Assembly (NCBI RefSeq): GCF_000299355.1
Contig: NC_018664.1
Location: forward strand, 2,526,380 to 2,590,379
Length of the DNA: 64,000 nt
DNA from: Gottschalkia acidurici 9a
GTDB taxonomy: Bacteria; Bacillota; Clostridia; Tissierellales; Gottschalkiaceae
Direction: 5' to 3'
A program made the position numbers and the translations under genes. Below, one piece after another: positions 30,302 through 31,009 of the stretch. Below the pieces are notes generated by a model. The model saw only the letters and a program-made list of their open reading frames with translations, made no database searches and was not told where the DNA came from. Every line of letters starts with the position of its first letter. The first letter of the stretch is position 1.

Positions 30302-30320
30302 CTAGTTATTAATAATAAAT

Positions 30321-30365
30321 ATACCCTAGAGATAGTCAAAATTATCTATCTCTAGGGTATATTTT
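30321..30365 (+). terminator. Terminator of the carbonic anhydrase gene
   Basis: A perfect 15-bp stem (30321-30335 with 30346-30360) followed by ATTTTAT, 20 bp after the stop codon. Confidence 0.88.
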
Positions 30366-30494: not shown

Positions 30495-30523
30495 TTGCCA
30501 AATGTTACATAAAATTATATAAT
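30495..30523 (+). promoter_or_regulatory. Sigma-A promoter of the small cationic peptide (candidate toxin) gene
   Basis: -35 TTGCCA (30495-30500), 17-bp spacer, -10 TATAAT (30518-30523). Predicted start near 30530 gives a leader of about 35 nt in which CCTCTT (30531-30536) can pair with AAGGGG (30549-30554) of the ribosome site. Confidence 0.8.
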
Positions 30524-30562
30524 TATGGTGCCTCTTTTATTGTACTTGAAGGGGGGTGCCGA

Positions 30563-30582
30563 GTTTGAAGAGATTAACACGC
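30563..30582 (+). repeat. Direct repeat copy 1, over the peptide start codon
   Basis: GTTTGAAGAGATTAACACGC. It matches copy 2 (30766-30785) at 17 of 20 positions. Copy 1 contains the TTG start and codons 2-6 of the peptide gene; copy 2 is read on the opposite strand inside the candidate antisense RNA. Confidence 0.9.
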
Positions 30583-30681
30583 ATAGTACACAAGTTAAAA
30601 GTAAGAAGAACTATAAGATATGTTTCCAGCTTAGTCAAATTAATCAACGCAATAATTAATATAGTAAAGTGGTTCATATAG
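30565..30681 (+). CDS. Small cationic amphipathic peptide, candidate type I toxin
   Basis: A 38-aa peptide starting MKRLTRIVHKLKVRRTIR and ending in a hydrophobic half (SLVKLINAIINIVKWFI). It has ten Lys/Arg and no acidic residues. The start is TTG at 30565, eight bases after a strong AAGGGGGGTG site. It has its own promoter and terminator. I recognise no family; it is not Fst, TxpA or Ldr by sequence. A convergent small RNA complementary to its start region suggests a membrane-active toxin held off by antisense RNA. A leaderless bacteriocin or a regulatory peptide are alternatives. Confidence 0.7.
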   Translation: MKRLTRIVHKLKVRRTIRYVSSLVKLINAIINIVKWFI

Positions 30682-30688
30682 AACCAAT

Positions 30689-30715
30689 TAAGAGAGTTTG
30701 CCGACTCTCTTTTTT
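30689..30715 (+). terminator. Terminator of the peptide mRNA, loop UUGCCG
   Basis: Stem AGAGAGT (30691-30697) with ACTCTCT (30704-30710), loop TTGCCG (30698-30703), followed by a T run. The loop is the exact complement of the loop in the antisense RNA terminator. Confidence 0.92.
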
Positions 30716-30721
30716 AACACA

Positions 30722-30759
30722 AAAAAAGAAAAAAGACAGAGTTGCCGCTCTGTCTTTTT
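30722..30759 (-). terminator. Terminator of the candidate antitoxin RNA, loop CGGCAA
   Basis: Stem 30730-30741 with 30748-30759 (12 bp), loop CGGCAA on the minus strand, then a T run from 30734 down to 30721 interrupted by one C. On the plus strand it would also serve as a back-up terminator for the peptide gene. Confidence 0.9.
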
Positions 30760-30765
30760 CGCCTC

Positions 30766-30785
30766 GTTTAAATAAATTAACACGC
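30766..30785 (-). repeat. Direct repeat copy 2, inside the candidate antitoxin RNA
   Basis: Plus-strand sequence GTTTAAATAAATTAACACGC, 17 of 20 identical to copy 1; transcribed from the minus strand it becomes complementary to the peptide start site. Confidence 0.9.
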
Positions 30786-30842
30786 TTTTAATTTATTTTG
30801 TGAAACATTGTTTCCTTTGTTAGTATTACTTTATCTACTATC

Positions 30843-30870
30843 ATTATACTATTTATTATTTATTTGTCAA
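30843..30870 (-). promoter_or_regulatory. Sigma-A promoter of the candidate antitoxin RNA
   Basis: On the minus strand, -35 TTGACA (30865-30870) and -10 TATAAT (30843-30848) with a 16-bp spacer: two perfect hexamers, the strongest promoter in this part of the window. Confidence 0.85.
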
Positions 30871-30965: not shown

Positions 30966-31009
30966 AAAAACTCTTGATGCTAGTAATTTTCTAGCATCAA
31001 GAGCCTTTT
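30966..31009. terminator. Terminator of the perR-rubrerythrin operon
   Basis: Perfect 13-bp stem CTCTTGATGCTAG/CTAGCATCAAGAG (30971-30983 with 30991-31003) with T runs on both strands. Confidence 0.92.

Follow-up and report, generated by a model that had tools for sequence, protein, structure and literature searches.

Why two neighbouring terminator hairpins of Gottschalkia acidurici 9a should present exactly complementary loops is the question raised by this locus, which was studied within a window of 64,000 nucleotides, the whole stretch of DNA that was analysed. It is flanked by gene-end hairpins, one after the carbonic anhydrase gene (30317-30364) and the other after the rubrerythrin gene (30966-31008). 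As judged from its sequence, the locus is probably a type I toxin-antitoxin module of the chromosome whose RNAs follow the plan of par (pAD1/Fst). The direct basis of this proposal is sequence, predicted folding, complementarity and kinship of plan, from which we infer transcription, toxicity and binding order; transcript ends were placed according to promoter and terminator positions. The parts are as follows.

30495..30523, plus strand: predicted promoter of the peptide mRNA, TTGCCA-17-TATAAT, 11/12 consensus.
30531..30555, plus strand: 5′ stem-loop pairing the ribosome-binding site GGGGGG (30550-30555), −9.4 kcal/mol.
30558..30582, plus strand: mRNA copy of the direct repeat (DRa/DRb-like), covering the start codon and 20/25 identical to 30761-30785.
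30565..30681, plus strand: putative 38-residue peptide MKRLTRIVHKLKVRRTIRYVSSLVKLINAIINIVKWFI with a TTG start, an open frame preceded by a strong ribosome site.
30690..30715, plus strand: hairpin H1, predicted terminator of the peptide mRNA, loop UUGCCG (30698-30703), with a U run.
30720..30836, minus strand: antisense RNA of about 117 nt, ends deduced from promoter and terminator.
30730..30759, minus strand: hairpin H2, predicted terminator of the antisense RNA, loop CGGCAA (30747-30742).
30761..30785, minus strand: antisense copy of the direct repeat, complementary to the mRNA start region according to repeat comparison and folding.
30770..30798, minus strand: 5′ hairpin of the antisense RNA, loop AAGCGUG, exposing the repeat end; 10/11 pairs are kept in a related genome (G002).
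30843..30870, minus strand: predicted promoter of the antisense RNA, TTGACA-16-TATAAT, 12/12 consensus.

H1 reads AAGAGAGT-TTGCCG-ACTCTCTT (30690-30711) and is followed by a T run reaching 30715, whereas H2 reads AAAAAGACAGAG-TTGCCG-CTCTGTCTTTTT (30730-30759) with a T-rich tail on the minus strand. As TTGCCG stands on the plus strand in both hairpins, the end loops UUGCCG and CGGCAA of the two RNAs can pair at six of six positions. The preliminary description had reported just this, two adjacent hairpins with fully complementary loops, and its coordinates and letters were confirmed in the sequence. H1 has its U run on the plus strand only and is expected to terminate the peptide mRNA. H2 is flanked by T runs on either side, one of them a T5 on the plus strand, and could serve both transcripts as a bidirectional terminator; H1, however, precedes it and should stop the mRNA first. 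In RNA folding, a U-G wobble closes the H1 loop with a frequency of about 82%, which leaves four bases unpaired, so that the open bases in this loop are predicted to number four to six.

The agreement of the loops exceeds what base composition would yield. With this base composition, the probability that two random hexamers agree is 7e-4, and that of a random hexamer being TTGCCG is 7e-5 by the same estimate. On both strands of the 3.1-Mb genome, TTGCCG followed by T6 within 14 bases occurs at two sites, the second of which, judged by its letters, is no hairpin. A family-specific chance level is about 3%, since 10 of the 300 pairs formed by 25 par-family terminators with six-base loops have equal loops.

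The layout around the hairpins is that of a par locus in several respects. The predicted promoters converge. The ribosome site is hidden, GGGGGG being unpaired with a probability below 0.1 in the predicted fold. The repeat score of 30558-30582 against 30761-30785, at the start site as in par, was equalled by one of 2000 shuffles; the predicted duplex of the start region amounts to −33.4 kcal/mol against a shuffle mean of −18.3, and a joint fold of mRNA and antisense RNA pairs through the repeat. The antisense RNA itself folds better than all of 200 shuffles (z −3.3). The whole peptide mRNA folds no better than shuffles (z −0.5), and its predicted fold contains no long-range pairing of the 5′ end that would correspond to the upstream helix (UH) of par. 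An open frame on the minus strand (30537-30677) was rejected as a product of the locus, since termination of the antisense RNA is expected ahead of it.

The candidate peptide frame was selected by its position, ribosome site and repeat, the TTG start at 30565 lying nine bases downstream of GGGGGG. By a hand estimate from base composition, a frame of this length arises by chance in about 5-7% of cases. The peptide carries a net charge of +10 from ten basic residues (K and R) with zero acidic ones, and a helix from residue 3 to 37 is predicted (pLDDT 78, single sequence), the N-terminal half being cationic and the C-terminal half amphipathic-hydrophobic. These models suggest a cationic, helical, membrane-type peptide and putative toxin. 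No relatives were found in Pfam, NCBIfam, PHROGs, PADLOC, PDB, plasmids or phages, nor in 249 genomes of the order and 391 of the class; three weak matches (L015, L016, L040) have no par layout and were judged unrelated. Thus an Fst/Ldr-type toxin was not recognized by Pfam or NCBIfam, two collections that also miss the Fst-like peptides of another genus described below. The charge, the lack of acidic residues and the amphipathic C-terminal half would also suit an exported antimicrobial or signal peptide whose output is limited by the antisense RNA, and the polarity is reversed in Fst-type toxins, which begin hydrophobic and carry a charged tail. Such an exported product is nevertheless improbable, as no obvious export or processing genes adjoin the peptide gene and the layout is that of type I toxins acting within the cell.

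A BLAST search with the antisense RNA in 100 related genomes returned one real relative, a match of 76 nt with 83% identity in another genus of the same family (G002, contig C7, 95833-95917; L003, L019, L054). Both hairpins are kept there, with the terminator loop CGGUAA instead of CGGCAA. In the terminator stem we noted two double compensatory changes and one change to G-U, which is weak evidence from two sequences. The copy sits among short, broken-looking frames, and because no peptide, repeat partner or H1 is found beside it, it looks like an orphan antitoxin or a remnant. In G001, a genome of the same family, a rubrerythrin gene of 81% identity is followed by another gene and the module is absent at this place; one genome is known to carry the complete module. 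Against Rfam, no antitoxin family matched the antisense RNA at gathering score, the weak matches being unrelated families. A leader-pattern search in four genomes of the family found no second par-like module. Matches of the antisense-repeat pattern in the genome and in viral contigs were at chance level, and a second match of the start-region repeat in the genome itself (L029) was rejected as it lies inside a coding frame. Separately, 28 bases identical to H2, including the hairpin with its TTGCCG loop, were seen in plasmid pLBY of Leptolyngbya boryana (L039, 1501-1528); they stand between two genes and are probably best read as a chance terminator match, not as a relative.

That the antisense RNA is conserved in a second genus, at a different genomic place, also argues against reading the region as a pair of ordinary gene-end terminators plus a chance frame, without any regulatory module. 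In favour of that reading, gaps of this kind often contain terminators, and the searches returned no relative of the peptide. Two strong promoters, the start-region repeat, the ribosome-site hairpin and the common loop all speak against it, and we regard it as very improbable.

A covariance model built from the antisense RNA led to par loci of the Fst type in another genus of the same order, g28. Besides the two copies already known, its hits included terminators in four genomes of this genus (G108, G109, G111, G121) that have the loop CGGCAA on other stems. On the opposite strand lies a short hydrophobic peptide, e.g. MFVSLVISILAGIICHYICKFLDRYIDDN, with the ribosome site GGGGGTG and start-region repeats, and layout and peptide character together let these loci be read from sequence as Fst-type par. 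Five covariance-model matches (L057-L060, L062) are terminator-like and were not taken as par loci. The g28 loci with the loop TTGCCG/CGGCAA are L056, L061, L063, L064 and L066. One type of g28 locus has the leader AGGGGGTGATTGGTTTG compared with AGGGGGGTGCCGAGTTTG in G. acidurici, with a TTG start in both, and bidirectional terminator stems such as AAAAAGACAGGAG in g28 closely match that of H2 (AAAAAGACAGAG). Searched with a profile of the g28 peptides, 34 of 249 genomes gave matches, many of these genomes having several copies, and the G. acidurici genome gave none. Across g28 and its neighbours, Fst-like par loci (L061, L063, L064, L107-L132, L137-L176) reach up to seven matches per genome and are often arranged in tandem. 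Their peptides were missed by Pfam PF13955 and, for the four peptides tried, by NCBIfam as well. The locus L056 (G111, contig C2, near 634290) is par-type with the loop TTGCCG/CGGCAA and encodes a peptide, MGSKILELLLIVCSNFVLPLLSNILFEIWKEKRNKE, unlike the HYICKWLD type.

These loci help to decide how the common loop of G. acidurici arose. The preliminary description had argued from the differing stems that the two hairpins are not a simple duplication. This argument does not suffice alone, because H1 and H2 have four loop-adjacent pairs (GAGA/TCTC) in common after a shift by one base pair. A par-type system in which the loop has no special role is therefore conceivable: H1 would be a leftover duplicate of H2, sharing GAGA-TTGCCG-TCTC with it, and the RNAs would be held by the start-region repeat alone or by read-through of the mRNA into H2, whose T runs on both strands and likeness to the common terminator of the family would fit the latter. 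The family comparison makes this unlikely. Tandem par copies in g28 conserve the stem and change the loop, and the terminator survey gave a mean inner-stem identity of 0.65 against a mean loop identity of 0.50, whereas H1 and H2 show the reverse, equal loops on different outer stems. The pattern at this one locus speaks more for a recognition loop that was retained than for a simple remnant of duplication. Surveyed g28-type loci have a single bidirectional terminator, usually 3-15 bases past the stop codon. By sequence, H2 would thus be the par-type terminator and H1 an extra one.

How close, then, is the module to known par systems? It resembles pAD1 par of Enterococcus faecalis (RNA I/Fst and RNA II) in its convergent promoters, ribosome-site stem-loop and start-codon repeats (PMC7472228). 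The complementary terminator loops UUGCCG/CGGCAA are a further feature of par found here, together with a toxin-side YUNR stretch, which is UUUG if the closing U is counted (PMC7472228). The order of parts is also the same in enterococcal par loci (PMC7472228). In contrast, pAD1 par has one common bidirectional terminator instead of separate H1 and H2, an upstream helix that is not predicted in the G. acidurici mRNA, and a toxin, Fst, that is hydrophobic and then charged, whereas the G. acidurici peptide is unrelated and of reversed polarity. Compared with g28, the loop hexamer is the same in some loci, an H2-type stem is present in others, and leader and TTG start are similar in some; these loci differ by one terminator shortly after the stop codon and by peptides mostly of the HYICKWLD type. 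The par-type reading put forward initially is well supported by the layout and by the use of an identical terminator loop in independent par loci within the order. The plan and the RNA organisation are common to par, yet the module is not classed as a member of the Fst family, given that no Fst-type toxin was recognized and no upstream helix predicted. Some enterococcal plasmid par loci (L072-L075) contain a second hairpin between stop codon and common terminator. Its loop region (e.g. AAGTCGCAA) shares TCGC with the terminator loops TTCGCC and CTCGCA, and this hairpin, positioned like H1, might be a second docking site.

Other type I systems share single aspects. The transcripts of bsrG/SR4 and bsrE/SR5 of Bacillus subtilis overlap at their 3′ ends. 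In both systems loops, including the antitoxin terminator loop, make the first contact (PMC6562991), a likeness to the contact proposed here, whereas the toxins are different and the plan of start-region repeats is missing. In Clostridioides difficile, the modules CD2517.1-RCd8, CD2907.1-RCd9 and CD0956.2-RCd10 comprise convergent toxin and antisense genes and encode small, positively charged membrane peptides (PMC6563280), as seems to be the case here. They differ in having overlapping transcripts, an N-terminal membrane part and a lysine-rich tail, and no sequence kinship of the G. acidurici module with them was found.

On the par-type reading, the promoter at 30495-30523 would produce a short mRNA for the 38-residue cationic peptide that ends at H1 and conceals its ribosome site in the 5′ stem-loop. 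The strong opposing promoter would supply the antisense RNA of about 117 nt ending at H2. In pAD1 par, loop-loop pairing is established as the first contact, the repeats serve to block translation, and the ribosome site is sequestered in a 5′ stem-loop (PMC7472228). The kissing first contact claimed in the preliminary description is by analogy with that system the best reading for G. acidurici, and the end loops UUGCCG and CGGCAA likely meet first. The repeats would pair next and cover the start codon, so that the peptide is not made. Once the antisense RNA is exhausted, the peptide would be synthesized and presumably harm the cell's own membrane. The ends of the two RNAs have barely any overlap, so the loops should remain in a kissing contact, without zipping into the long duplex seen in par, and repression would be left to the start-region repeat. 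Predicted energies are in line with this: the H1-H2 duplex reaches −20.2 against −9.5 and −9.0 for the separate hairpins (sum −18.5), so full opening gains little and the contact should remain reversible, although so narrow a margin also counts against the proposed module. A g28 terminator pair with fully complementary ends has about −44 kcal/mol.

What is unusual in the G. acidurici module is the mRNA's own extra terminator H1 and the +10 peptide without relatives. Tentatively, and with less assurance than the par plan itself, it is possible that a par RNA unit was re-used, the Fst gene being swapped for a cationic peptide of reverse polarity and an extra terminator keeping the antitoxin recognition hexamer, so that two RNAs with scant end overlap would meet through a pure loop kiss together with the start-site repeat. 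The module would also add a peptide type without a found relative to those under par-like control. In known par systems a single hairpin is transcribed in both directions, which by itself makes the loops complementary, and the function of the loop is thus inseparable from the overlap. Tandem par copies of g28 that keep their stems and vary their loops are what one would expect if the loop sets the matching of antitoxin and toxin RNA. In G. acidurici, the loops lie on different hairpins, so that each can be changed alone and the kissing step becomes directly testable.
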